DNA of 37,110 bases from an uncultured Granulosicoccaceae bacterium (GTDB taxonomy: Bacteria > Pseudomonadota > Gammaproteobacteria > Granulosicoccales > Granulosicoccaceae): assembly GCA_937951345.1 (NCBI GenBank), contig CALFCF010000081.1:1-37110 (forward strand), read 5' to 3'. The notes beneath the pieces were generated by a model, which did not search any database, was not told the origin of the DNA, and saw only the letters and a list, made by a program, of their open reading frames with translations. Shown here in pieces: positions 16,678 to 31,418 of the stretch; position 1 is the stretch's first letter; every line of letters begins with the position of its first letter. Position numbers and translations under genes: made by a program.

Positions 16678-17661
16678 GTGGCAGATCACACTCCAGATAG
16701 CACACGAACCCCGGACATATTTGCAATCGGCGAAGCGTTGATTGAGTTTGTGCGTTTGGATGTTAAACAAGACTCTCTAAAAAATATCAAAGAAAACCAT
16801 CGACCGTTATACCAGCAAGGTTATGGTGGTGACACATCCAATGCGCTCATAGCAGCAGCCCGCCAGGGAGCATGTTGTGGGTATATAACAGCTGTCGGTA
16901 ATGATATTTTCGGTAAGGATTTGCTCGATCTCTGGAGCCGCGAAAAAATCTGCACCGACTATATTAAAACAACCCCGGAGAATCCCACCGGCGTGTATTT
17001 TGTACAACCGCACGCCAGTGGCAGACAGTACACCTATGCCCGCAAAGGCTCTGCGGCCAGCCAGTATCAGCCGGATTGGCTGCCGCTGGATGCGATAGCC
17101 GCGGCAAAAGCCCTGCATGCATCTGCACTATCTTCAGCTATATCACAACCTATGCGCGACAGTGTGATCGTCGCCTTCGAGCAGGCTAGAGCACATAACA
17201 CACTAGTGTCGTACGACACCAATTTGCGTTTGAATTTATGGTCTCTCGAGAATGCAGTTGCAGCCATAGAAAAAGTTTTACCACTGGTGGATATTGTATT
17301 TCCGAGTGACGATGAAGCACAGCAAATAAGCGGTAGAGAAAATGCTGACGATCTCATCGATTATTTTCTCGAGTTCGGCTGCAAGCTGGTTGTTCTAACA
17401 AGGGGTGACGCTGGCGCTGTTGTCGCAAGTAAACAGGGACGTACCACTATCCCGCCTGCTCCGAGCACACCCGTTGATGCAACAGCTGCGGGTGACAGTT
17501 TTGCCGGTAGTTTTCTCGTTCATTACCTGGAAACCGGTGATACCACTTTTGCTGGTCGTTGTGCAGCTGCTACTGCAGCGAGCACTGTCAGTGGTCTGGG
17601 TGCCCTGGATCCTATACCGTATCGTGACAGTGTACTCGCTACCGTAAAAACTTCCGGATGA
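16678..17661 (+). CDS. kdgK: 2-keto-3-deoxygluconate kinase-like PfkB sugar kinase
   Basis: A PfkB/ribokinase-fold kinase. The open frame begins at an ATG (16603) inside the kduD gene, but the conserved N-terminus DIFAIGEALIEF begins well after that. The GTG at 16678 is the better start (about 327 residues, the family's usual length), although its ribosome site is weak. Substrate-side residues appear in GYGGDTSNALIAAARQG. The C-terminal PfkB signature DATAAGDSFAGSF holds the catalytic Asp in GDSFAG. The reaction would phosphorylate 2-keto-3-deoxygluconate to KDPG for the Entner-Doudoroff aldolase. No KDPG aldolase (eda) is in the window. Position after kduD supports the role. Some PfkB kinases act on related keto-sugars, so the substrate is probable, not proven. 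Confidence 0.8.
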   Translation: MADHTPDSTRTPDIFAIGEALIEFVRLDVKQDSLKNIKENHRPLYQQGYGGDTSNALIAAARQGACCGYITAVGNDIFGKDLLDLWSREKICTDYIKTTPENPTGVYFVQPHASGRQYTYARKGSAASQYQPDWLPLDAIAAAKALHASALSSAISQPMRDSVIVAFEQARAHNTLVSYDTNLRLNLWSLENAVAAIEKVLPLVDIVFPSDDEAQQISGRENADDLIDYFLEFGCKLVVLTRGDAGAVVASKQGRTTIPPAPSTPVDATAAGDSFAGSFLVHYLETGDTTFAGRCAAATAASTVSGLGALDPIPYRDSVLATVKTSG

Positions 17662-17681
17662 AGTGATTTGCAAGCTAACAG

Positions 17682-17742
17682 CGAAACGTTTCGGTAAACA
17701 CTAGGACAAACGTACAGTCAAACGTACGGGCAAACGTTTTGA
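17682..17742. promoter_or_regulatory. LacI-type palindrome plus three phased CAAACGT units
   Basis: CGAAACGTTTCG (17682-17693) is a perfect 12 bp palindrome with the central CG typical of LacI/GalR-family operators. It is followed by three contiguous 12 bp units, each opening with CAAACGT: 17707-17718, 17719-17730 and 17731-17742. The last, GCAAACGTTTTG, again resembles a LacI-type operator. The array lies 90-150 bases upstream of the hydroxy-acid oxidase gene and just after kdgK. No LacI-family gene is in the window. The regulator is therefore unknown. Confidence 0.5.
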
Positions 17743-17829
17743 AATACTCAACCAATCTATTGATTTACCTGAATCGGTGATCAGCCGCTTTGCTTTGGTA
17801 AATTTAGTGAACGTCAGGGATTAGTTCTC

Positions 17830-18975
17830 ATGGCAACAAATCTGGACCTTAAGTTTCCTGCGATCGACGATCTGCGCAAACGTGCCAAGCGCAGAATGCC
17901 ACGCTTTGCATTTGAGTATCTTGACAGTGCTACCGGACAAGAACTAGGTGTTAAATACAATCGAGATGCACTGGATGCCATCCGTTTCATGCCGGGTATC
18001 CTGAGTGGTGAGCTCAGTTATGACCTGTCGCATGAATTTATGGGTCGTAAGTATGACTATCCTTTCGGTATCGCGCCGGTAGGAATGTCAGGGGTAATAT
18101 GGCCGGGCGCAGAAACCATCCTGGCAAGCGGCGCACAACGAAACAACATTCCGTATTGTCTATCGTCTGTGGCTGCTGCAGACCCGGAGGACCTGGCTCC
18201 ACACATCGGTGATAACGGTTGGTTCCAACTCTACCCGCCAGCCGACCCGGCCATTCGCAAGGACATGCTTGCCCGTGTACAAGCTGCAGGTTTCAGCAAA
18301 CTTATTCTCACTGTCGATGTACCTGCCGAAAGCCGGCGGGAACGCCAACGAAGGGCTTTAATATCCATGCCCCCCAAGATGACCCCCTCTATTGCCTGGT
18401 CGATATTGACGCATCCGCATTGGGCATTGGCCATGGCGCGAGCTGGCAGCCCGCGTATGAAATTCCCTGAAAGTTATGTCGACCCATCCAGTACCGATCC
18501 GTTTGTTCATGCCGGTCGCATCATTCGTGGCTACCCCGACTGGCAGTATCTGGCTGACCTGCGTGCCGAGTGGCAGGGAGACTTAATAATCAAAGGCGTG
18601 CTCAATCCGGAAGATGCTGTGAAATTACTGGACAGCGGCGCAGATGCTATCTGGATCTCTAACCACACCGGACGACAGTTCGAAGCAGCGCCTGCGAGTA
18701 TTGATCAACTGCCGAAAATTCGTGATGCTGTCGGTGACGCCGTGCCACTGATTGTGGATTCCGGTGTCAGCGGTGGACTCGATCTGATGCGCTGCCTTGC
18801 CCTGGGTGCTGACTTTGTATTTCTGGGCAAAGCGTTCCACTATGCCGTGGCTGCATTCACTGATACAGGCGTGGATCATTTGGTTAATCTACTGCAGGCT
18901 GATCTGATAGCGAACATGTCGCAAACCGGTGCTCAGACCTATGCAGAATTGCCTGAAAAACTGTACAAGGTATAA
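17830..18975 (+). CDS. FMN-dependent alpha-hydroxy-acid oxidase/dehydrogenase
   Basis: A protein of 381 residues, full length for the L-lactate/glycolate/mandelate oxidase family. Likely active-site residues are Y30, Y135 (LYPPADP), D163 and R170 in VDVPAESRRER, K255 in LIIKGVL, the catalytic base H279 and substrate-binding R282 in ISNHTGRQFE. The family norm for the last motif is SNHGGRQLD, so G to T and D285 to E are changes near the active base. The FMN phosphate site is in VDSGVSGGLDLMRCLALGADFVFLG. It oxidises an L-2-hydroxy acid to the keto acid. No membrane segment is evident, unlike LldD-type enzymes with a membrane loop. It sits between the sugar-acid genes and the methylated-amine genes, with 168 and 234 bp gaps, so it may be its own transcription unit. 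Confidence 0.85.
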   Translation: MATNLDLKFPAIDDLRKRAKRRMPRFAFEYLDSATGQELGVKYNRDALDAIRFMPGILSGELSYDLSHEFMGRKYDYPFGIAPVGMSGVIWPGAETILASGAQRNNIPYCLSSVAAADPEDLAPHIGDNGWFQLYPPADPAIRKDMLARVQAAGFSKLILTVDVPAESRRERQRRALISMPPKMTPSIAWSILTHPHWALAMARAGSPRMKFPESYVDPSSTDPFVHAGRIIRGYPDWQYLADLRAEWQGDLIIKGVLNPEDAVKLLDSGADAIWISNHTGRQFEAAPASIDQLPKIRDAVGDAVPLIVDSGVSGGLDLMRCLALGADFVFLGKAFHYAVAAFTDTGVDHLVNLLQADLIANMSQTGAQTYAELPEKLYKV

Positions 18976-19209
18976 GGCGTATTTAACAGGCAAAGATACA
19001 GGGAAAGGCACAGGGAGACCTTGGAACGCCTCCGCAGAAGTATTGACAGCCTACTATCGACAGGCGTACATAGCGACGACATCCACCGGCGTGTTACCTT
19101 GAATTCGTAGCAATTTCAGTCACAATTCTTGATAACTGGCTGCTGAGCTCGCAGCATTTGCAAAACATTTCCACGCTGAGTTTTTCAGCAAACGCTCGTT
19201 GAGGTCTGA

Positions 19210-21618
19210 ATGAAAGAGCATTATCGCGTAGTTGTCATTGGTGGCGGGGTTGTCGGTTGCTCACTGATCTATCACCTGACCAAATATGGCTGGAAAGACG
19301 TCTGCCTGCTCGAGCGATCGGTTCTGACGGCTGGTTCCAGCTGGCATGCTGCCGGCGGTATCCATGCCTTGAACGCCGATCCGAATATGGCGGCACTGCA
19401 GGCTTACACGATTGATCTGCTAAAACAAATTGAAGAAGAAAGCGGTCAGAGTATTGGTTTGCATATGACCGGCGGACTTACCATCGCCGGTACGCCCGAG
19501 CGTTGGGAGTGGTTGCAATCAGCCTATCGCGTTTTTCAGTCAATAGGAATTGATGACTGCCGTCTGGTCACACCTGAAGAAGCCGGCGAGCTATGCCCCA
19601 TCATGTCAACTGACGGTGTCATCGGTGGTATGTGGGCTGACCGCGAAGGTTATCTCGACACCACCGGTACCGTGCACGCGTATGCGGCGGTCGCTAAAAA
19701 GCACGGGGCTGAATATCACGAACATACGAAAGTTGAAGCGCTAGAGCAAACGCGCGACGGTTGGCGTGTCATTACCGACAAAGGCGTGGTGACTTGTGAG
19801 CATGTTGTTAATGCCGCCGGTCTGTGGGCCAAGCAGGTGGGACGCATGGCGGGAATCGAATTGCCGGTAGCACCACTTAAGCACCACTATCTGGTGTCAG
19901 ACAGCATACCGAAGCTCGATGAGATTGACTTCGAAGTTCCGATGACTGTGGACCTTGAAGGTTTCACTTATCTGCGACAGGACCAAAAGGGGGTTCTGCT
20001 TGGCATCTACGAGATTAACTACGAACACTGGGCCATGGATGGAGCACCCTGGGACTACGGAATGGAATTGTTCCAGGAGCAAACGGACCGGATAGAACAC
20101 GAGCTAACACTCGGATTTGAACGTTACCCGTGCTTACAGGAGGTTGGTGTAAAAACCTGGGTGAACGGTGCGTTCACGTTTTCACCGGACGGCAATCCAC
20201 TGGTCGGCCCGGTCGATGGCAAGCCCGGATATTGGTGTGCCTGCGGCGTGATGGCAGGTTTCCTCCAGGGGGGTGGCGTTGGGAAGTCACTGGCTGAATG
20301 GATGATTCATGGCGAGGCCGAAGCTGATACCTACCCTATGGATATCGCCCGCTACGGACCTCATACCGAGAACCGCGAGTACATTCGTCAAACCACCGGT
20401 CAGTTCTATTCGCGACGCTTCGTCATGTCTTACCCGAACGAACAGTTGCCGGCCGGGCGACCACTAAAGATGTCGCCCGCCTATAGCGATATGACTGCCA
20501 GTGGTTGTCGTTGGGGCGAGAGCTGGGGACTTGAAGTGCCTATCTATTTCGCACCGGACGAATCCTTCGTTGAGAATCCCAGCCTGCGTCGCTCCAATGC
20601 ACATGACATCATCGGCGAGGAATGCCGCGCTGTTCGCGACACAGTCGGACTGCTCGATATCAGCGGATTTTCACGCTATGAAGTTACCGGTGCTGACGCC
20701 GAAACCTGGCTTGATCATCTGATGGCATCCAAATTACCAGCACCCGGCCGGGCGCGACTGGCGCCAATGCTTGCACCCTCAGGGCGCCTACAAGGTGACT
20801 TAACGGTTATAAACTGGGGTGATGACAAATGGTGGATCATGGGTTCGTACTATCTGCGCGGCTGGCATATGCGCTGGTTTAACAGCCACCTGACAGGCGA
20901 TGTACAGGTACGTGATGTATCGGATGCCATGGTCGGTTTCAGCCTTTCCGGCCCCAATTCGCTGAAGGTTTTAGAAAAACTCACTAACGATCCGGTAGCC
21001 GATATGCCGTTTCTCGGCTGCGGCATTATTGATGTCGGCCTTATCCGGGCACGAGTTACACGTGTGTCAGTAGCAGGAGAGCTGGGGTACGAAATCAATT
21101 GCACCAGCGCCGAGCATATTTTACTGCGCAAGTTGTTACTCGAAGCCGGTGCTGATTTGGGTATTCGCGAGTATGGCTACAACGCTATGCTAAGTCTGCG
21201 TCTGGAGAAAAGTTTCGGCATCTGGTCAGCCGAATTCACGCAAGGCTATACACCTGGACAAACCGGCATGGATCGCTGGATTGACTGGAATAAATCAGAT
21301 TTTATTGGTAAGCAGGCTGCCGTTGCCGAGAAAGACGGTAACGGCTCTCAGCAGATTCTTGTCACACTCGAAGTCGAAGCCGATGATGCTGATGCCAGTG
21401 GTTATGAGCCGGTCTGGCACGGCGATGATCTAGTCGGTTTCGTGACATCCGGTGGCTATGGTCATACTGTTGGCAAATCGCTGGCCATGGCGATGATAAA
21501 CCGCGATGCAGCAACATTGGGTACAGCCTTAAAAGTCCATGTCGTGGGGGTCGAGCGAGCAGCCAAAGTAATTGCACCCTCCCCGTACGACCCTGAAGGA
21601 AACGTCATGCGAACCTGA
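19210..21618 (+). CDS. Dimethylglycine/sarcosine dehydrogenase-like FAD-GcvT fusion
   Basis: A two-part flavoprotein of 802 residues. Part one is a DAO-type FAD domain (about 1-390). It has VVVIGGGVVG at 7-16 and the SSWHAAGG segment, where H46 corresponds to the histidine that covalently holds FAD in DMGDH and sarcosine dehydrogenase. Part two (about 430-800) is a GcvT/aminomethyltransferase domain with LLDISGFSRYEVTG and VAGELGYEINC, which binds tetrahydrofolate in relatives. The expected reaction is N-demethylation of dimethylglycine, sarcosine or a related N-methyl amine, passing formaldehyde to THF as 5,10-methylene-THF. Its stop overlaps the next start by one base (TGATG), so the MttB-like protein is translationally coupled to it. 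A GAGG site lies before the ATG. The substrate is not certain. Confidence 0.9.
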   Translation: MKEHYRVVVIGGGVVGCSLIYHLTKYGWKDVCLLERSVLTAGSSWHAAGGIHALNADPNMAALQAYTIDLLKQIEEESGQSIGLHMTGGLTIAGTPERWEWLQSAYRVFQSIGIDDCRLVTPEEAGELCPIMSTDGVIGGMWADREGYLDTTGTVHAYAAVAKKHGAEYHEHTKVEALEQTRDGWRVITDKGVVTCEHVVNAAGLWAKQVGRMAGIELPVAPLKHHYLVSDSIPKLDEIDFEVPMTVDLEGFTYLRQDQKGVLLGIYEINYEHWAMDGAPWDYGMELFQEQTDRIEHELTLGFERYPCLQEVGVKTWVNGAFTFSPDGNPLVGPVDGKPGYWCACGVMAGFLQGGGVGKSLAEWMIHGEAEADTYPMDIARYGPHTENREYIRQTTGQFYSRRFVMSYPNEQLPAGRPLKMSPAYSDMTASGCRWGESWGLEVPIYFAPDESFVENPSLRRSNAHDIIGEECRAVRDTVGLLDISGFSRYEVTGADAETWLDHLMASKLPAPGRARLAPMLAPSGRLQGDLTVINWGDDKWWIMGSYYLRGWHMRWFNSHLTGDVQVRDVSDAMVGFSLSGPNSLKVLEKLTNDPVADMPFLGCGIIDVGLIRARVTRVSVAGELGYEINCTSAEHILLRKLLLEAGADLGIREYGYNAMLSLRLEKSFGIWSAEFTQGYTPGQTGMDRWIDWNKSDFIGKQAAVAEKDGNGSQQILVTLEVEADDADASGYEPVWHGDDLVGFVTSGGYGHTVGKSLAMAMINRDAATLGTALKVHVVGVERAAKVIAPSPYDPEGNVMRT

Positions 21619-23231
21619 TGAGTCAGGATAATAATCTATCGACTGACGGATCTGACGGGACGTTACCGGCAGAAACCGCAAATAAGCAACAGCGCAGCCG
21701 CAATAGAAAGCGTCGACGTGTCGATAATCTTCGAGAAAATCGTGTAGCAGCCAAGCGTCCGGTTAACTACCGACAACTTCGAAACCCCTTCCCTCAAATG
21801 GCCGTGTTCTCTGAAGATCGCGTTCATGCAATGCATGAGGCATCGCTGGATCTTCTTGAGAACCTTGGTTTAAAAGTTTTGTTACCTGAAGCACGTGCGT
21901 TGTATAAATCAGGCGGCGCGCGCGTTAACGAATCGACCGAGATGGTTTTCATCGGGCGTGAAATGGTTGAAGCTGCACTGGTTTCAGCACCTAAATCCAT
22001 TCATTGTCGCGCTGCAAAACCAGAATACGACGTGGTGCTTGAACCAGGAGCGGTAGTCTTTCAACCGGCAGCCGGTGCACCGCACGCCACCGACCTTGAA
22101 CGTGGGCGACGTCCGGGTTGTGCCCGAGACTTCAACGAACTACTTACCCTGACACAGCATTTCGATGTGCTGCAGATGATACCGCCACTGGTTGAGCCGC
22201 AAGATGTCGCGATAAATCTGCGTCATTACTTCACCATGCGATCGCAATTGACACTGACAGAAAAGCTACCGTTTATCTTTTCACGCGGAACACCACAAGT
22301 AGAAGAAAGTTTCGAAATGCTCTGCCGTTTCAGAGGTCTGAGCGAAGAAGAATTTCAATCACATGTGCATACCCACACGATTATCAACACCAACTCTCCG
22401 CGCCAACTCGATATTCCAATGGCACAGGGGTTGATAGATTTCGCTCGTTTCAACCAGGTATCGATTGTCACGCCGTTTACACTAATGGGGGCCATGGCGC
22501 CGATCACAGTTGCCGGCGCTATGACCTTGTCTCACGCTGAAGCGCTTGCCGGCATAACACTGACACAACTCGCAAGGCCAGGCGCGCCGGTATGCTATGG
22601 CACATTTACGTCCAATGTCGATATGAAATCCGGTTCACCGGCATTCGGTACACCGGAGCATATGAAAGCATCGCTGGTAGCCGGACAACTTGCGCGACTA
22701 ACCGGTCTTCCGTGGCGTTGTGCCAGTGGCTCCGCGGCAAACATTGCAGATGCACAGGCGGCTAACGAAAATCAATTCGGTTTGTGGGGGTGCATGCTGG
22801 CAGGTGCAACGATCACCGTACATGCCGCAGGCTGGCTTGAAGGCGGTCTGAGTGTCTCCTATGAAAAACTTATTACCGATATCGAAGTGCTCCAGATGAT
22901 CGCCGAGATGTGCCACAACACCAGTGCAGATGATGCCGAAATTGGCATGGATGCGCTGGCCGAGATACAACCCGGCGGTCATTTCTTTTCAACTGAACAC
23001 ACAATGCAGCGTTATCAGACCGAGTTCTACCAGCCGCTTGCTGCCGATTGGTCAAACCACGGAACCTGGAGTGAGCGCGGAGCAAAAGATGCCAGTCAAC
23101 GTGCCACTGGCATTTGGCAGAACATTCTTCAGCAGGCACCAAGTCTTGAAATTGATGGAAGAAAACTTGAGGAACTCGACCGTTTTATTGAAAAGCAGGA
23201 AAACAACGGTGGAGCCGCTCCGGTTAGTTAA
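21618..23231 (+). CDS. Trimethylamine methyltransferase (MttB) family protein, non-pyrrolysine
   Basis: A protein of 537 residues of the MttB superfamily. An Arg/Lys-rich, probably disordered N-terminus (about 22-55) is followed by a TIM-barrel core beginning FPQMAVFSEDRVHAMHEASL. Other conserved pieces are GPxx-like stretches such as FTLMGAMAPITVAGAMTLSHAEALAG, CYGTFTSNVDMKSGSPAFGTPEH and the late ISYEK-like SVSYEKLITDIEVLQM. The frame has no in-frame amber codon, so no pyrrolysine is used. This places it with the glycine-betaine-type (MtgB-like) branch rather than with true MttB. Those enzymes move a methyl group from a quaternary amine to a corrinoid protein. No corrinoid protein or reactivase is nearby. 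Overlap with the preceding DMGDH-like gene suggests the two act in sequence on a methylated amine, with the acceptor unknown. Confidence 0.85.
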   Translation: MSQDNNLSTDGSDGTLPAETANKQQRSRNRKRRRVDNLRENRVAAKRPVNYRQLRNPFPQMAVFSEDRVHAMHEASLDLLENLGLKVLLPEARALYKSGGARVNESTEMVFIGREMVEAALVSAPKSIHCRAAKPEYDVVLEPGAVVFQPAAGAPHATDLERGRRPGCARDFNELLTLTQHFDVLQMIPPLVEPQDVAINLRHYFTMRSQLTLTEKLPFIFSRGTPQVEESFEMLCRFRGLSEEEFQSHVHTHTIINTNSPRQLDIPMAQGLIDFARFNQVSIVTPFTLMGAMAPITVAGAMTLSHAEALAGITLTQLARPGAPVCYGTFTSNVDMKSGSPAFGTPEHMKASLVAGQLARLTGLPWRCASGSAANIADAQAANENQFGLWGCMLAGATITVHAAGWLEGGLSVSYEKLITDIEVLQMIAEMCHNTSADDAEIGMDALAEIQPGGHFFSTEHTMQRYQTEFYQPLAADWSNHGTWSERGAKDASQRATGIWQNILQQAPSLEIDGRKLEELDRFIEKQENNGGAAPVS

Positions 23232-23261
23232 TTGTCAGCCGCAATAAATCAATCCAACCTG

Positions 23262-23762
23262 ATGGCAACATTTGAGGCAGCTGGCTTTGGCGGTGGATGC
23301 CATTGGTGTACAGAATCGGTATTTCTGTCGCTGCGTGGTGTAGACACAGTTGATCAGGGGTTTATCGCATCCGACGAGCCTTACAACAGTTTTTCAGAGG
23401 CTGTACGAATAAGCTTTGATACACAGCTAATTACATTCGAGACACTGATAGAAATACATTTGCACACCCACTCGAGCACCTCACCACATAAATTCAGAGA
23501 GAAATACCGAAGCGCAGTCTATGTGACTAATAAGCAGCAAGCACACATCGCAAAAGCAGCACTTGCCAATTTGCAAGAAGACTTTCCAGCCCCAATAGTC
23601 ACCCAGGTTCTGCCGCTGGTGGAATTTAAATCGTCTGAAGAGCGATATCACGATTACTACAGACACCGTAAAAATCAAGCATTCTGTATTCGATATATAG
23701 ACCCGAAACTTGAGGTACTACGGAAACGATTCGGGTTTGCATTAAAAGAAGAAAATAGCTAA
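23262..23762 (+). CDS. Peptide methionine sulfoxide reductase MsrA-like protein
   Basis: The frame opens with a TTG directly after the previous stop. I prefer the ATG at 23262, which gives 166 residues starting MATFEAAGFGGGCHWC. The catalytic motif of MsrA, GCFW, appears as GCHW. The acid in SEAV (the GHAEAV position) and YRSAVY are kept. The usual tyrosine of the GY-x-GG segment is replaced (QGFIASDEP), and the acidic stretch before YRS is altered. The C-terminus has HDYYRHRKNQAFC, with a candidate resolving cysteine. The normal reaction is thiol-dependent repair of methionine-S-sulfoxide in proteins. The altered pocket may change substrate or rate. It ends the plus-strand run and faces hutC. 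The link to the methylamine genes may be positional only. Confidence 0.7.
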   Translation: MATFEAAGFGGGCHWCTESVFLSLRGVDTVDQGFIASDEPYNSFSEAVRISFDTQLITFETLIEIHLHTHSSTSPHKFREKYRSAVYVTNKQQAHIAKAALANLQEDFPAPIVTQVLPLVEFKSSEERYHDYYRHRKNQAFCIRYIDPKLEVLRKRFGFALKEENS

Positions 23763-23829
23763 TGGCACCTAGATGCTTCGCTGGAAAATTATTTTAGTAC
23801 TTCATAATAGTGCGGACACGCGTTAGAAT

Positions 23830-24546
23830 TCACAGTCCAATTTCCATCCGATAACCAGGCGCATAGACTAAACGCACTACGGTAATTGTTGAATTACCAG
23901 AATCACGCGTTCGTCGCTCTGTCGTGAATAAAGCCGATGATTCCTTGATTTCAAGCACACTCATTTCTTCATCCGATGCAATGGATGCCGAAAATGCAAG
24001 ATCACCACCGTTAAACGGAATGTTCTCTACTAACCATTGATTCGGGCTTGTGTTTCTAAAGTTTGCATCAGCAGCTTCAGGAACAATTGTGGTATCTATC
24101 CAACGATTCTCAATAACATAAGGTTGTTCATTGGCTAAATGCAAAGCTTTGACATGTAGCAATCGAACACCTGGTGCGGGGTTCATAAGCGCTCGGATTG
24201 TTTTTGGCGGATGCTCCCGTTTTTGCGATAGAAATCGATAGGAGTAGCTAAGCTCTTTAGACTCGATTTCCTGCCGGATCACGGGAATACTGAACGTGGC
24301 TTTACGCGTTGGGTGCACAACAACGCGCGTGCCGCCTTTGCGTTTGCGCTCCAACAATCCATCATCGGCGATAGCTTGCAAAGCTCGATTCACTGTAGTA
24401 CGCGCACATCCAAATTCCGCTGCAAGTTCAGCCTCGGTTGGCAATAGATCACCGGGCATCCAATAGTTCGATCGCAGCCGGTTTAACACTTCAGTTTCTA
24501 CACTCTGCCAACTGTTGGTTGGCAGACGGCTTGTATTGCTTCTCAA
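23830..24546 (-). CDS. hutC: Histidine utilisation repressor, GntR/HutC family
   Basis: A protein of 238 residues: a GntR winged helix-turn-helix (about 12-78; recognition part EAELAAEFGCARTTVNRAL) followed by a UTRA ligand domain (about 95-235). HutC proteins bind operators in hut promoters and are released by urocanate. The start is a TTG at 24546 that overlaps the hutF stop by four bases (TTGA). No ATG lies before the winged helix, so TTG and translational coupling to hutF are likely. It is the second gene of the minus-strand hutF-hutC unit. The probable operator is the palindrome at 25959-25976, which would make the unit self-regulated. Its short, basic wing (RKRKGGTRVVV) is ordinary for the family. 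Confidence 0.88.
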   Translation of the reverse strand: MRSNTSRLPTNSWQSVETEVLNRLRSNYWMPGDLLPTEAELAAEFGCARTTVNRALQAIADDGLLERKRKGGTRVVVHPTRKATFSIPVIRQEIESKELSYSYRFLSQKREHPPKTIRALMNPAPGVRLLHVKALHLANEQPYVIENRWIDTTIVPEAADANFRNTSPNQWLVENIPFNGGDLAFSASIASDEEMSVLEIKESSALFTTERRTRDSGNSTITVVRLVYAPGYRMEIGL

Positions 24547-25928
24547 AGATCTTCTCGTAGCGTTTTCATAACGTTCAGATACCGCCGCACTATTGACTCG
24601 CGATTAATATGCTGACTATTCACTACTTGATGTCGTCCTGCAGACCAGACATCGCTTATCATTCTGTCATCACCAGCAAAAATGAATGTGTCCAAAAGCG
24701 TGTCGCCTTTGACACCCACAAGATCAGGATGTGAGTTATCCAATGACATTAAGTCAGCCCACTGCCCTGCTTCGATACGGCCGGTTTGTCTTCCAGCAGC
24801 CTGCGCTCCTCCTTCGATAACGGCTTCCAGTAATCGTCTGCCGGTTGAAAACTGCTCTGTCGCAAAAGCCGCTCGTGAGTGGTCACGTAAACGCTGCGAG
24901 TACTCCAGCGTTCTCAACTCCTCACTTAACGAGATTCTGATATTCGAATCAGAGCCTATGGCGATGCGTCCGCCTGAATTGAGAAAACTTATACCGTCAA
25001 AAATACCGTCTCCCAGGCTTGACTCTGTGATCGGGCAAAGTCCGGCCACGGCACCAGACTTTGCCAACATACTGGTTTCATGTGAAAGCATTTGAGTGCA
25101 ATGTATCAGGCACCACTTTTCATCAACCGCCACGTTGTCCAGAAGCCATTCAACGGGTCTGGCGCCCCAGGCATTTTCCACCTCAGTTACTTCCTTCTTT
25201 TGCTCCGCGAGATGCATATGAAACGGCGCTGTCTGGTCCAACGACCGCAACGATTTGAAGCTTTCGTGATCAACAGCTCTCAAACTATGCGCAGAGATTC
25301 CTATACGTGCGTCATTCGATAATTGTTCAAGCATCCCCCGCGCTTGTGTCCACAGCCGTACATAACGATCTACATCATTTCCGAATCTTTGTTGACCACT
25401 TGTGAGATTACGTTGATCGCAACCTCCATACTGGTAGTGCACTGGCAACAGTGTCAGACCGATTCCACTGGTTTGAGTGGCCGCGACAATACGTTCGGAT
25501 AATTCAGCCAGGTTGTTGTACTCAGCACCACCGGGTTGATGATGGATATAATGAAATTCAACGTTGGTCGCGTAGCCTGCCTCTAACATCTCCATTTGGA
25601 CAAAAGCAGTAATTGCCTCAATCTGATCAGGCGTTAGTTTGTCCAAAAACGAGTACATCAATTTCCGCCAGGTCCAGAACGAATCATTTGCGTCCTGACC
25701 ACGCTGTTCGGTTAAACCTGCAAGTGCGCGCTGGAATGCGTGGCTATGGACGTTAACGGGCGCGGGCAACAACGTAGAAGCGCAATGTACATCCTGCCCG
25801 TTAATCGCTGTCGCTTGATCTTCAGCACGCACTACAGACTCAACACGACCATCAGTGCCAATACTCACAAGCACGTCATTTGTCCAGCCCTCTGGTAAGA
25901 GCGCTTGCGTTGCGCGAATCATCTTCAT
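24543..25928 (-). CDS. hutF: Formimidoylglutamate deiminase
   Basis: An amidohydrolase of about 461 residues from the ATG at 25928. A longer frame to 26000 starts with TTG and would run across the operator and promoter, so it is not chosen. Metal ligands appear as HSH (61-63, in NVHSHAFQRAL), later HLAEQ and HCTQ, and the catalytic Asp in IGSDSN. HutF deiminates N-formimidoyl-L-glutamate to N-formyl-L-glutamate plus ammonia, the fourth step of the five-step histidine route in pseudomonads and relatives. The next enzyme, N-formylglutamate deformylase (HutG), is not in the window. The gene overlaps hutC and is divergent from hutH. Relatives include guanine and atrazine-type deaminases, but the hut setting makes HutF clear. 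Confidence 0.9.
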   Translation of the reverse strand: MKMIRATQALLPEGWTNDVLVSIGTDGRVESVVRAEDQATAINGQDVHCASTLLPAPVNVHSHAFQRALAGLTEQRGQDANDSFWTWRKLMYSFLDKLTPDQIEAITAFVQMEMLEAGYATNVEFHYIHHQPGGAEYNNLAELSERIVAATQTSGIGLTLLPVHYQYGGCDQRNLTSGQQRFGNDVDRYVRLWTQARGMLEQLSNDARIGISAHSLRAVDHESFKSLRSLDQTAPFHMHLAEQKKEVTEVENAWGARPVEWLLDNVAVDEKWCLIHCTQMLSHETSMLAKSGAVAGLCPITESSLGDGIFDGISFLNSGGRIAIGSDSNIRISLSEELRTLEYSQRLRDHSRAAFATEQFSTGRRLLEAVIEGGAQAAGRQTGRIEAGQWADLMSLDNSHPDLVGVKGDTLLDTFIFAGDDRMISDVWSAGRHQVVNSQHINRESIVRRYLNVMKTLREDL

Positions 25929-25947
25929 GGTTAAAACAGGCTTTAGC

Positions 25948-25976
25948 TTGACGACTTTATTATGTGCATACATAAT
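25948..25976 (+). promoter_or_regulatory. hutH promoter
   Basis: TTGACG (25948-25953) and CATAAT (25971-25976) are spaced by exactly 17 bases. Each matches 5 of 6 sigma-70 consensus bases. Transcription would begin near 25983, about 38 bases before the hutH ATG. The -10 overlaps the HutC operator. Confidence 0.6.
25959..25976. promoter_or_regulatory. Probable HutC operator
   Basis: ATTATGT (25959-25965) and ACATAAT (25970-25976) are exact reverse complements around a GCAT core, giving an 18 bp imperfect palindrome. The inner ATGTGCATACAT resembles the TGTATATACA-like sites of HutC proteins. It lies between divergent hutF and hutH. The right arm supplies the hutH -10 (CATAAT). On the opposite strand the left arm supplies an equivalent CATAAT for hutF. 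One bound repressor dimer could block both directions. Confidence 0.6.
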
Positions 25977-26020
25977 GACATGCAAACTACCACTTAGCAA
26001 TCGCGAACAAGGAACTTGCC

Positions 26021-27562
26021 ATGAGCAGCGTGCTCACACCGGGATCTACATCTTTGTCGCAACTTGAATCTATATGGCGCACAGGTAGCGCAGCCTCACT
26101 AGACTCAACTGCGCGGCCCGGCATTCAAGCCGCCGCTGATCTGGTCGCCAGTGCCGCAGACGGAAAATCAGCTGTGTATGGAGTAAATACCGGCTTTGGA
26201 AAATTGGCCAGTATAAAAATAGCGTCCGAAGACACCGCCACATTACAACGCAATCTCGTTCTTTCACATTGTTGCGGTGTTGGTGAGATTCTGGATGTAT
26301 CAACAACTCGATTAATGATGGTGTTAAAGCTTTTGTCAATTGGTCGCGGTGCTTCCGGCATCGCTCTGAAAACAGTTGATTTAATAGAAGCGATGCTGGA
26401 CAAAAATGTAACACCCGTGGTGCCAGTGCAAGGTTCAGTCGGCGCAAGCGGTGACCTGGCACCATTAGCTCATTTTGCCGCCGCACTGATAGGTGAGGGG
26501 CAAGCCATTTTTGAAAACCAAAGCCTGCCAGCCACTGAAGCACTGAAACAAGCCGGTCTAAATGCCGTAAAACTTGGTCCAAAGGAAGGGCTTGGGCTTA
26601 TAAACGGTACCCAATTCTCTACCGCCGTATGTCTCGCGGCACTATTCGATGCATGGCGAAATGCAACAAATTCCTGTATCACAGCTTCGCTGTCCACAGA
26701 CGCTATCATGGGGTCTACAGCGCCACTCAATGACGCTATTCACACTCTGCGCGGTCACTCCGGACAAATCGCTGTTGCAGACACGATGCGCGACATACTC
26801 GCCGGCTCGCAGATACGCGAAAGTCATCGGGAAAATGATACTCGTGTGCAGGATCCCTATTGCATTCGTTGTCAGCCACAGGTACTTGGCGCAGCAATAG
26901 ATCTATTGCAAAGCGCCGGGAAAACATTGCAAATCGAGGCCAATGCAGTTACCGACAACCCCTTGGTGTTGGTCGCCACAGGTGAAATAGTTTCAGGTGG
27001 GAATTTTCATGCTGAACCGGTGGCATTTGCTGCTGATCAGATTGCCTTAGCGATGGCCGAGATTGGCAGCATCGCTCAGAGACGCATAGCGTTAATGGTA
27101 GATCCAACTCTTTCGTTTGATCTACCGCCATTCTTAACACCTGAGCCCGGCCTCAACTCTGGATTTATGATTGCAGAGGTAACAAGTGCTGCACTAATGA
27201 GTGAAAACAAACATCTAGCGAACCCGTGCTCTACTGATTCAACACCGACATCAGCCAATCAGGAAGACCATGTATCAATGGCAGCACATGCGGCCTATCG
27301 ACTGAAGCGTATGAACGTCAATCTATCAAGTATTATTGGCATTGAACTACTGTGTGCGGCCCAGGGTATCGAATTTCGTGCACCACTTAAAACCAGTAAA
27401 AAACTGCGCCACGTGATCGCAAGGTTACGTTCAATTGTGCCCTCATTAACGAAAGATCGTTTTCTTGCGAACGATATCGAAGCTGCAACCAATCTGGTTA
27501 GAGAAGGTGCAATCATCGACGCGTCAGGAGTCCCCGCGTTTGCCAGTGACTTGGCACTATAA
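26021..27562 (+). CDS. hutH: Histidine ammonia-lyase
   Basis: A protein of 513 residues, normal length. The MIO prosthetic group forms from A142-S143-G144 in [12 protein letters not shown], the same position as in the Pseudomonas enzyme, and the catalytic tyrosine is Y53 in YGVNTGFG. The later segments [14 protein letters not shown] and [17 protein letters not shown] are also characteristic. It converts L-histidine to urocanate and ammonia, the first step of the pathway. A clear AAGGAA ribosome binding site (26009-26014) lies seven bases before the ATG. It is the first gene of the plus-strand hutH-hutU-hutI unit, controlled from the operator-promoter just upstream. Identity is certain on motif and context. 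No oddity is seen. Confidence 0.96.
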
Positions 27563-27610
27563 GAAATTAGAACTTACACTTTTAAAAACAACATTCCAAT
27601 CTAATAGACC

Positions 27611-27636
27611 GCGATCGGTAGTGATTGGTCGATCGC
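27611..27636. other. Inverted repeat between hutH and hutU
   Basis: GCGATCG (27611-27617) and CGATCGC (27630-27636) are perfect reverse complements with a 12-base loop, so the transcript would form a stable 7 bp stem. No U-tract follows. It may tune expression or RNA stability between hutH and hutU, or simply be an intergenic repeat. Confidence 0.35.
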
Positions 27637-27715
27637 CTGAAGCTTAAACGAAAATCTCGATTCCTTCGAAGTTGCACGAAACCAAGGGGCTCAAGGCCGT
27701 AAGGGAAAGTATTTT

Positions 27716-29431
27716 ATGAGCGCAAAATCAAAAAATGAGTCGCAAACCGAAATTGCAGAGCCCGGTCCAAGACACAATCAACGTACCGTCATTGCACCTA
27801 CCGGCACTGAACTGACGTGCAAAAGTTGGCTGACAGAAGCCCCCATGCGCATGTTGATGAACAACCTGCATCCGGATGTAGCCGAAAATCCACATGAACT
27901 CGTCGTGTACGGCGGAATCGGTCGCGCTGCTCGCACATGGGAAGACTTCGACACCATTGTAGATAGCCTTAAAGATCTGAGCGAAGAACAAACGCTACTG
28001 GTGCAATCAGGTAAACCCGTTGGAGTATTTCAAACACACAGCAATGCGCCACGCGTACTGATTGCCAACTCTAACCTTGTGCCCCAATGGGCCACTTGGG
28101 ATCATTTTAATGAACTTGATCGAAAGGGTCTGGCAATGTACGGCCAAATGACAGCAGGCTCGTGGATATACATCGGCACCCAAGGCATTTTTCAAGGTAC
28201 TTATGAAACCTTTGTCGAGGCCGGTCGCCAGCATTACGAAGGCAGCCTTAAAGGACGTTGGATACTCACCGCTGGTCTGGGTGGGATGGGTGGCGCGCAA
28301 CCATTAGCGGCAGTGATGGCAGGCGCTTGCTGCCTTGCCGTTGAATGCGACGAGACACGTGCAGACTTTCGTCTGCGAACTCGTTACGTTGATGAAAAAA
28401 CACATGATCTTGATGAAGCACTAGGGCTAATAAAGCACTGGACAGCTGCTGGTGAGGCAAAATCCGTCGCGCTTATCGGTAATGCATCGGACGTTTTTCC
28501 GGAGTTGGTTAAACGTGGCGTGCGACCGGACATCGTTACAGACCAAACCAGCGCACATGATCCTACACACGGTTATTTACCGCAAAACTGGACGATAGCG
28601 CAATGGCACGAGCAACAGGAGGTCAACCCGAAGGCGGTGGAAAAAGCAGCGCGGGCCAGCATGAAGATACATGTTGCCGCAATGGTTGACTTCTGGAGCG
28701 CTGGCGTCCCGACACTCGACTACGGCAATAACATTCGACAGGTGGCAAAAGAGGAAGGCCTGGACAACGCATTTGCATTCCCGGGTTTTGTACCCGCATA
28801 TATTCGACCTTTGTTCTGTCGTGGTGTAGGCCCATTTCGCTGGTGTGCTTTATCAGGTGACCCCAAGGATATATATAAAACGGATGCAAAGGTTAAAGAA
28901 CTATTGCCAGACGACACACATCTTCATAACTGGTTAGATATGGCCCGCGAACGCATCGCATTTCAAGGTCTTCCCGCCCGAATCTGTTGGGTGGGTTTAG
29001 GTGTTCGCGATAAATTGGGACTGGCATTCAATGAAATGGTTCGCACCGGTGAGCTATCAGCGCCTATTGTTATAGGGCGCGATCACCTTGACTCCGGTTC
29101 GGTTGCATCGCCTAACAGAGAAACAGAATCCATGCGTGATGGTTCCGATGCTGTATCAGACTGGCCACTATTGAATGCTCTACTCAACACCGCGTCAGGT
29201 GCGACATGGGTGTCTTTACACCATGGCGGTGGTGTCGGCATGGGTTTCTCGCAGCATTCCGGTATGGTGATTTGTTGCGATGGATCAAAAGAGGCTGACC
29301 AACGAATCGCACGCGTGCTTTGGAATGATCCGGCCACCGGTGTTATGCGTCATGCAGACGCGGGTTACCCTGATGCGCTTGATTGTGCACGCGAGCACGA
29401 GCTAGACCTGCCAGCTATAAACAGACTATAA
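27716..29431 (+). CDS. hutU: Urocanate hydratase
   Basis: A protein of 571 residues, about 14 longer than the Pseudomonas enzyme because of the N-terminal tail. The NAD+-binding glycine-rich stretch is [11 protein letters not shown] (185-195). C424 lies in ARICWVGLG and corresponds to the conserved active-site cysteine (C410 in Pseudomonas putida numbering). [10 protein letters not shown] (367-376) and [19 protein letters not shown] near the C-terminus are strongly conserved in the family. It uses tightly bound NAD+ to hydrate urocanate to imidazolonepropionate, step two of histidine breakdown. AAGGGAAAG before the ATG is a good ribosome site. It lies 153 bases after hutH and 100 before hutI, in the same direction. 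Identity is certain. Confidence 0.96.
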
Positions 29432-29531
29432 GCAAGTAATAACCGAGAACGTATAACCTCGATCGAGAAAAACCGACTGATCTTATCGTAAACTCAATCA
29501 TGACCTATCCAACGTCTACAGAATAAACGCA

Positions 29532-30758
29532 ATGAAGACCACTGATCTGAGTATGGCCAAACTAAAACTGGTCAACACGACTATTGCCACGCTCGATCAT
29601 GATAATGAACCTTACGGCCTTATTAGTAACGGCTCTGTTGTAGTTGAAAACGGATTGATCAGCTGGGTTGGAAACAAGTCAGAGCTACCTTCGGAATATG
29701 CCGATTATAAACCGCATGATCTAGAGGGTCGCTTACTGACTCCCTCTTTCATCGATTGCCATACCCACATTGTGCACGGCGGCCACCGGGCAGTAGAATT
29801 TGAAATGCGACTGGAGGGCTCCAGTTACGAAGAAGTTGCGCGCGCCGGTGGTGGAATCGTATCAACAGTCGAAGCAACACGCGCAGCGAGTGTCGACGAA
29901 TTGTGTGGATCAGCGTTGCCGCGCATAGATGCATTGCTTGCAGAAGGCGTTTCCGTTGTCGAGGTAAAGTCAGGTTACGGACTCGACCGAGATACCGAAC
30001 TTAACATGCTAAGAGCAGCCCGTTCGATAGAAAAAGTACGGCCAGTGCGTATTCGAACCAGCTTTCTTGGCGCACATGCAGTTCCAAACGAATACAAAGA
30101 TCGATCAGATGCCTATATCGATGAAGTATGTTTACCTACTTTAGAAGCGGCAAATGCTGAATCACTCGTCGATGCAGTAGATGGTTTTTGTGAAGGCATT
30201 GCCTTTACCCCAGCACAAATTGCGCGTGTATTCGATAAAGCACAGGAACTTGGAATACCGGTTAAGTTGCACGCCGAACAACTCTCGCACTTAGGCGGGA
30301 CTTTACTTGCCACTCAGTACGGCGCCCTGTCCGCAGATCATCTGGAATACGCCAATGATGATGACGTCCAGGCCATGGCAGCTTCCGATACCGTCGCGGT
30401 ATTGTTACCCGGCGCGTTTTACACCATTCGAGAAGCGCAAATACCACCGATCACATCGTTTCGTCTACACAACGTACCGATGGCGCTTGCAACCGATTGC
30501 AACCCCGGGTCTTCTCCAATGACTTCGCTGCTATTGGCGATGAATATGGCATGCACACTATTCCGTATGACACCTGCAGAGTCGCTTGCAGGTGTCACTC
30601 GACATGCCGCCAAAGCTCTGGGTCTTCATGACACAGGAGTAATCCGACCGGGTTTACGCGCAGACTTCACAAGCTGGAACGTGACCCACCCTGCTGAACT
30701 GAGTTACCGAATCGGTACTAATTATTTGCACGAGCGTTTTTTCGCCGGCCTGGAATAA
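29532..30758 (+). CDS. hutI: Imidazolonepropionase
   Basis: An amidohydrolase of 408 residues. The first metal ligands are H77 and H79 in [11 protein letters not shown]. Then come [20 protein letters not shown], substrate-side [12 protein letters not shown] and ADHLEY, and the catalytic Asp in [11 protein letters not shown]. All are signatures of HutI. It opens the imidazolone ring to give N-formimidoyl-L-glutamate, which HutF then deiminates. The ATG at 29532 has no strong ribosome site. A second in-frame ATG seven codons on (29553, MAKLKLVN) is an alternative. It is the last recognised hut gene of the plus-strand unit. No hairpin with a U-tract follows the stop. Identity is certain. Confidence 0.95.
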
Positions 30759-31418
30759 GCAGAAAACAGAATAAAGATATCGAAATGGCTGAAGAGGTCT
30801 AGCGTTTCTATATTGCAAATAATTGACTACGATTGTATGTAACACACCACGTTAATTCGCTACACATAGAATGTCGGACAAACCAAACTTCGTCAGCGAC
30901 AAGGGATCGTCGCTATTGAGACCAAGGAATTCCATTTTCTAATTGATCCATATAGAGTTACTTTCATCCCTTCACAAACTACTTCAACAACGCCGGATAA
31001 ATTCGTTGTGATGCACTGAACTGTGCAATCCAACAGTATTTTTGGATGACAAGCGCGTACTGGAAGCATTCGCAAAACTACACAGAACCGTCTTGAAGCA
31101 AAATAAAACCACTTATCCGCTCATTGAGTTAGAATTTTAGATTAATCATTGGGATCGAAATTATCACCACATCGATCGATGCAGGGTATGCACTGTATCA
31201 TATTGCATAACTCGTGCGATCAACCGTAAAAGATGGCGCTACGCAAATTTTAAATACCATGGCACTACTCACAATTGAATAAACGTCATGCAGGAATTTT
31301 GTAATGACCTGGCTTATTACCACAAGCACTCCTTCCACTGTTTGCCAGGCATTTCCACAAACATGAGCACTGTGTTGGACTGCAGTTATAGCTTTTGCAC
31401 CAAATGTGTGCGCCAGTA
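30759..31418. other. About 650 bp between hutI and the TRAP genes
   Basis: No convincing gene is present. Two palindromic features are close together upstream of dctQ: CATCGATCGATG (31170-31181, perfect) and TATGCA/TGCATA (31187-31192/31204-31209). They may be regulator sites for the TRAP operon. A TTGACT hexamer near 30820 lacks a matching -10. Length alone argues that the TRAP genes have their own promoter. Confidence 0.4.

Follow-up and report, generated by a model that had tools for sequence, protein, structure and literature searches.

A 37,110-nucleotide stretch of DNA from an uncultured Granulosicoccaceae bacterium (contig CALFCF010000081.1; hereafter, the window) carries two overlapping genes, one for a protein of the dimethylglycine dehydrogenase (DMGDH) type and one for a member of the MttB superfamily of corrinoid methyltransferases. 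Their sequences and company make it likely that, in this marine-type bacterium, the pair encodes the first two N-demethylation steps for an amino-acid betaine, a carboxylated quaternary amine of osmolyte type, feeding a corrinoid system that is shared within the host genome. This kind of pathway has been known since 2025 (PMC12478193); what is probably new is that the pair is a conserved unit and represents a distinct branch of that recently described pathway. As far as the literature is searchable, neither this MttB subfamily nor the coupled arrangement has been characterised.

The gene pair and its junction

The pair comprises the following features:

19210..21618, + strand: DMGDH-type oxidoreductase dependent on flavin adenine dinucleotide (FAD) and tetrahydrofolate (THF), 802 residues, with an FAD domain and a GcvT-like folate domain (Pfam and structure match)
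21618..23231, + strand: MttB-superfamily (PF06253) corrinoid methyltransferase without pyrrolysine, 537 residues (Pfam profile)
21616..21620, + strand: stop/start overlap TGATG linking the DMGDH-type and MttB genes (junction sequence)

The original prediction had named a DMGDH-like gene and a pyrrolysine-free MttB-like gene that overlap by one base. This description holds: the open reading frames lie at these coordinates on this strand, their domains match, and at the junction, CTGATGAG, the TGA stop and the ATG start have one base in common.

The 802-residue protein contains the Pfam domains DAO, FAO_M, GCV_T, and GCV_T_C, and its nearest solved structures are those of mammalian (human and rat) DMGDH, the best being human 5l46 (504 bits). 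In the alignments, the flavin-linked His of DMGDH corresponds to H46, the catalytic dyad H225/Y259 of Arthrobacter dimethylglycine oxidase (AgDMGO) to H225/Y254, and the folate-domain Asp, which is Ala in 3gsi, to D530. Thus, DAO, FAO_M, and GcvT domains, the flavin-linked His, the His/Tyr dyad, and the folate Asp together place the protein in the dimethylglycine dehydrogenase family. The retained residues support the earlier idea that demethylation of a quaternary amine and oxidation of its product may be encoded as one unit, with folate as the predicted acceptor in the second step.

The corrinoid set elsewhere in the host genome

The original prediction also held that no corrinoid protein is present. 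This is correct for the window, where no match to one was found, and incorrect for the host genome, which is 95.5% complete and was searched in full. The B12-binding matches of the genome all lie on other contigs. PF02607 has a single match genome-wide, a stand-alone 237-residue open reading frame with PF02607 and PF02310 on contig C48 (MtgC-like). Beside it are genes for a DUF1638 protein, a small PF13769 protein, a pterin-binding methyltransferase (PF00809, MtgD-like) that scores over the NF005719 cut-off, and a RACo/RamA-type reactivase, identified by its RACo domains. No MetH activation domain was found in the host genome, and its two PF02574 proteins show the pattern of a split methionine synthase.

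An aerobic MtgBCD/split methionine synthase system, backed by genetics and proteomics, was described in Ruegeria pomeroyi in 2025 (PMC12478193). Since the gene content of C48 is that of the R. pomeroyi system, with both a corrinoid protein and a reactivase, the suggestion that the methyl acceptor lies outside known pathways does not stand. A survey of the company that the gene keeps, proposed along with that suggestion, finds a stand-alone PF02607 protein encoded in 32 of the 35 genomes with an MttB orthologue; the remaining three assemblies, at 2.2-3.4 Mb, are possibly incomplete. Co-occurrence links the window MttB protein to the MtgC of C48, its predicted partner.

These results bear on another scheme, in which the MttB protein would need no corrinoid and would pass its methyl group directly to folate in the GcvT-like domain of its partner. 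The two genes are tightly coupled and the partner has a folate domain, which favours this scheme. However, a complete corrinoid set resides in the same genome, the stand-alone corrinoid protein accompanies nearly all orthologues, several genomes have the MttB gene without an adjacent DMGDH gene, and the characterised members of the superfamily use cob(I)alamin (PMC6855144, PMC12155760). The host corrinoid set and its co-occurrence with the MttB orthologue leave direct transfer to folate barely credible.

The host encodes nine MttB paralogues, five of which have a DMGDH-type or DAO-type neighbour. On contig C33 (L019, 8787-16603), two DMGDH-type genes and a gene for a class III aminotransferase come after an MttB paralogue; the pocket of this paralogue is unusual, with Trp at the position of MtgB Y94 and His at that of R309.

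Conservation and linkage of the pair

By a scripted count, a DMGDH-type gene adjoins the MttB gene in 36 of 53 homologous loci, and thus linkage is well above chance; loci L090 and L148 are adjacent pairs in addition to these. Half of the 36 pairs (18) have a 4-base overlap, ATGA or GTGA. Whether the pair might prove unlinked in relatives had been named as a test of its coupling, and the outcome favours linkage. Where the genes are unlinked, both usually occur in the same genome: the DMGDH orthologue is found elsewhere at 73-76% identity in six genomes and at 66% in one. A TetR gene travels with the pair in relatives. Among 54 Ruegeria genomes (a sample that does not include R. pomeroyi with its megaplasmid DNA), 51 encode an MttB orthologue at 62-66% identity. 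In R. pomeroyi, the proteins SPO2108 and SPO2134 are induced on glycine betaine.

The surroundings of the unit vary. On a plasmid of Leisingera sp. S132 (L149, 5311-10488), a cytochrome P450 gene lies between the DMGDH and MTTB genes and overlaps the MTTB start by 4 bases; a cytochrome P450 is also annotated beside MTTB in L. caerulea plasmids. A sub-clade without an adjacent DMGDH gene (L057, L059, L061, L089, L097) has a histidine-phosphatase-family gene before MttB and, in most members, a gene for a CehA/McbA-type metallohydrolase as well. Just upstream of the unit in two Boseongicola assemblies (L056, 5622-6743; L058, 4059-5180) is a core-MetE-like gene of the cobalamin-independent methionine-synthase type, that of L056 matching PF01717. 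One contig filed as Verrucomicrobiota (L085) carries an MttB gene whose product is nearly the same as that of L086, a single-cell genome from an alphaproteobacterium, and is probably a misplaced contig.

Family, pocket, and tree of the MttB-type protein

The MttB-type gene runs through 537 codons in one open frame, with no TAG that would have to be read as pyrrolysine. Its product matches PF06253 (MTTB) over the full length (protein residues 35-531 against profile positions 4-499 of 500, E 3.2e-191) and scores 282.9 bits, against a cut-off of 525, with TIGR02369, the model for the pyrrolysine trimethylamine enzyme. Among solved structures, S. meliloti 4yyc and the glycine betaine enzyme (MtgB) of D. 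hafniense (2qne, 9yce) are nearest.

Docking has led to the proposal that glycine betaine contacts Y94, N199, R309, H345, and F353 of MtgB (PMC6855144). When the MtgB pocket positions were mapped across about 130 sequences, the equivalents of N199, R309, and H345 were found to be kept in the window protein and its clade. The F353 position is Gly in the window protein, as it is in 4yyc and other proteobacterial paralogues. At the predicted cage positions Y94 and F98, the window protein has A152 and H156; the first of these positions is Ala, Cys, Ser, or Gly in all members of its clade, and the second is His or Asn in nearly all. Tyr and Phe are kept at both in the host's own paralogues on C48 and C4, in S. 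meliloti 4yyc, and in one Ruegeria paralogue group. On the tree, the C48 and C4 paralogues and 4yyc are separate from the window clade (supports of 99 and 100), and D. hafniense MtgB falls outside both groups.

The window protein itself lies within an alphaproteobacterial clade, and the other members from its own family (L026, L027), as well as L070, a Granulosicoccaceae assembly, are found at separate places. These scattered positions suggest that the MttB gene has been transferred horizontally more than once.

A probable third demethylating enzyme

Ruegeria and its relatives have the genes in the order DMGDH-MTTB-TetR, with a DAO-family oxidase next; in four genomes in which the pair is split (L220-L223), this oxidase directly follows DMGDH. 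SoxB, with or without SoxA, takes the place of the oxidase after the pair in several other loci (L026/L164, L070, L081, L083, L099). The host orthologue of the oxidase (70% identity) is encoded on contig C23, convergent with frmA and frmB, whose products, S-(hydroxymethyl)glutathione dehydrogenase and S-formylglutathione hydrolase, both score over the NCBIfam cut-offs. Lacking a folate domain, such an oxidase would be predicted to set formaldehyde free, and so its placement on C23 fits a third N-demethylation. No match to this oxidase was found in four relatives from the host's family. In L092, a GcvT gene lies downstream of the unit together with GcvH-like and GcvP-like genes, the latter recognised by sequence appearance. 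Glycine as the end product would fit these neighbours.

The proposed pathway

Gene content, linkage, co-occurrence, and the retained DMGDH residues come from the sequences, and from them the reactions, the choice of partner, and the substrate are predicted. In the first step, the MttB-type enzyme would transfer one methyl group to the Co(I) of the genome's shared MtgC-like corrinoid protein (C48), from which the MtgD-like enzyme would pass it to THF; the corrinoid would be re-reduced by the RACo-type protein with DUF1638. In the second step, the DMGDH-type enzyme would oxidise the resulting tertiary amine, and the second methyl group would be taken up by THF as methylene-THF. The last methyl group would be removed by the DAO-family FAD oxidase of C23 or, in relatives, by SoxB/SoxA.

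Several results weigh against this pathway or against parts of it. The DAO-family oxidase had no match in 29 of the 50 genomes searched and is missing from many genomes that bear the pair. Several members of the MttB clade have no adjacent DMGDH gene, and in the more divergent ones (G071, G067, G068, G070, G141) the nearest DMGDH relative is only 46-50% identical; thus, the partnership of DMGDH and MttB is not universal. Finally, the argument about substrate specificity that follows is weak because the pocket residues on which it draws come from docking (PMC6855144) rather than from a ligand-bound structure.

The substrate

With that reservation, the lack of the cage residue and the separate position of the clade on the tree suggest that the window MttB protein is probably not the host's main glycine betaine enzyme. 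The C48 paralogue, which lies about 20 kb from the corrinoid gene, may be a better candidate for that role. The substrate of the pair is slightly more likely to be some other betaine than glycine betaine, since the protein lacks the predicted cage residue and the genome has separate MtgB-like paralogues that keep it. The Sox and glycine-cleavage neighbours seen in relatives would fit a glycine-type betaine.

The pair could instead be a second route for glycine betaine itself, with MttB yielding dimethylglycine, DMGDH yielding sarcosine, and SoxBDAG or the oxidase yielding glycine. Dimethylglycine dehydrogenase is the nearest relative of the DMGDH-type protein, which keeps all of the catalytic residues; several lineages have SoxB/SoxA after the pair, L092 has GcvT and GcvH/GcvP-like genes after the unit, and N199, R309, and H345 of MtgB are retained. 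Nevertheless, Y94 is replaced throughout the clade and F98 nearly so, whereas the C48 and C4 paralogues, 4yyc, and the Ruegeria paralogue keep Tyr and Phe, and the window clade stands apart from these proteins on the tree. On balance, a second glycine betaine route appears rather unlikely.

Another candidate would be a substrate that bears no more than two N-methyl groups, for example proline betaine, which would need a single oxidation after MttB had formed N-methylproline. P. inhibens responds to the methyl groups of stachydrine (PMC11306105), and work cited in PMC12478193 describes proline betaine enzymes of the MttB superfamily from anaerobes. Yet DMGDH recurs together with another N-demethylating oxidase, which suggests that the substrate has three methyl groups, and no proline-specific neighbour was recognised around the pair; this substrate is improbable.

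The proposal that the pair serves an amino-acid betaine can be taken one step further, and only tentatively: the clade may form an aerobic pathway of its own that depends on B12 and serves some marine betaine rather than glycine betaine, one that is present in nearly all Ruegeria, has spread horizontally, and acts on a substrate without a known aerobic demethylation route.

Neighbouring genes in the window

A complete set of histidine utilisation genes (hutC, hutF, hutH, hutU, and hutI) lies within 8 kb downstream of the pair. If the substrate were hercynine (histidine betaine), its full demethylation would supply histidine to these genes, and the altered pocket would admit a bulkier substrate. 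However, hut genes are absent from the vicinity of the pair in all of the homologous loci fetched, hutC and hutF are convergent to the pair, HutU is an ordinary urocanate hydratase that scores under the thiourocanate models, and the neighbouring Sox and glycine-cleavage genes of relatives indicate glycine instead. A literature search on hercynine/ergothioneine catabolism and on this gene pair found nothing direct. Hercynine is thus a very unlikely substrate, and the link through the hut genes was dropped, given their absence near the pair in other loci and the ordinary character of the hut enzymes.

Directly after the pair is one further gene:

23232..23762, + strand: MsrA-like protein with GCHWC replacing GCFWC, first ATG at 23262 (PF01625, 87.8 bits)

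The protein scores under the msrA equivalog cut-off. Its gene is probably on the transcript of the pair; none of the homologous loci fetched has an MsrA relative close to the pair. Upstream of the pair (17830-18975) is a gene for a lactate-dehydrogenase-like flavin mononucleotide enzyme, which scores under the curated LldD cut-offs. No Rfam RNA was found in window positions 17500-30900. Promoter-like matches occur at chance level, and terminator-like matches are within about 1 standard deviation of shuffled sequences.

Significance

Marine bacteria have many MttB paralogues (nine in the host, 8-13 in three Ruegeria genomes). PMC12478193 gives up to seven PF06253 paralogues per genome and proposes that they act on other methylated compounds, yet glycine betaine is so far the one substrate whose demethylation is connected with aerobic MtgBCD. 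A conserved, translation-coupled unit that has predicted second and third demethylating enzymes of its own is a concrete target in the search for other methylated algal osmolytes that are consumed via vitamin B12.

Comparison with known systems

The closest known system is MtgBCD(E) of R. pomeroyi DSS-3 (PMC12478193). Both have a PF06253 methyltransferase, a stand-alone corrinoid protein adjoining DUF1638, a pterin methyltransferase, and a RACo/RamA-type reactivase, both lack MetH, and in both the remaining methyl groups are, or would be, removed by oxidative steps. In contrast to that system, the window MttB protein belongs to a separate subfamily without the predicted glycine-betaine cage residue, and its gene is translation-coupled to a DMGDH-type gene of its own, while the corrinoid genes are on another contig.

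The MttB protein shares its family, over nearly the full length, and the N199, R309, and H345 equivalents with D. hafniense MtgB (2qne/9yce) and S. meliloti 4yyc; it differs in the changes of Y94 to Ala and F98 to His, in its branch of the tree, and in its aerobic-type host. The DMGDH-type protein has the same domain order, flavin-linked His, His/Tyr dyad, and folate Asp as human and rat DMGDH and the Arthrobacter dimethylglycine oxidase, but its gene, unlike theirs, is coupled to that of a corrinoid methyltransferase. Heterotetrameric sarcosine oxidase, SoxBDAG, is represented by SoxB with or without SoxA directly after the unit in several relatives, where it would carry out the third demethylation; the window has none, and the host has the DAO-family oxidase on C23 instead.

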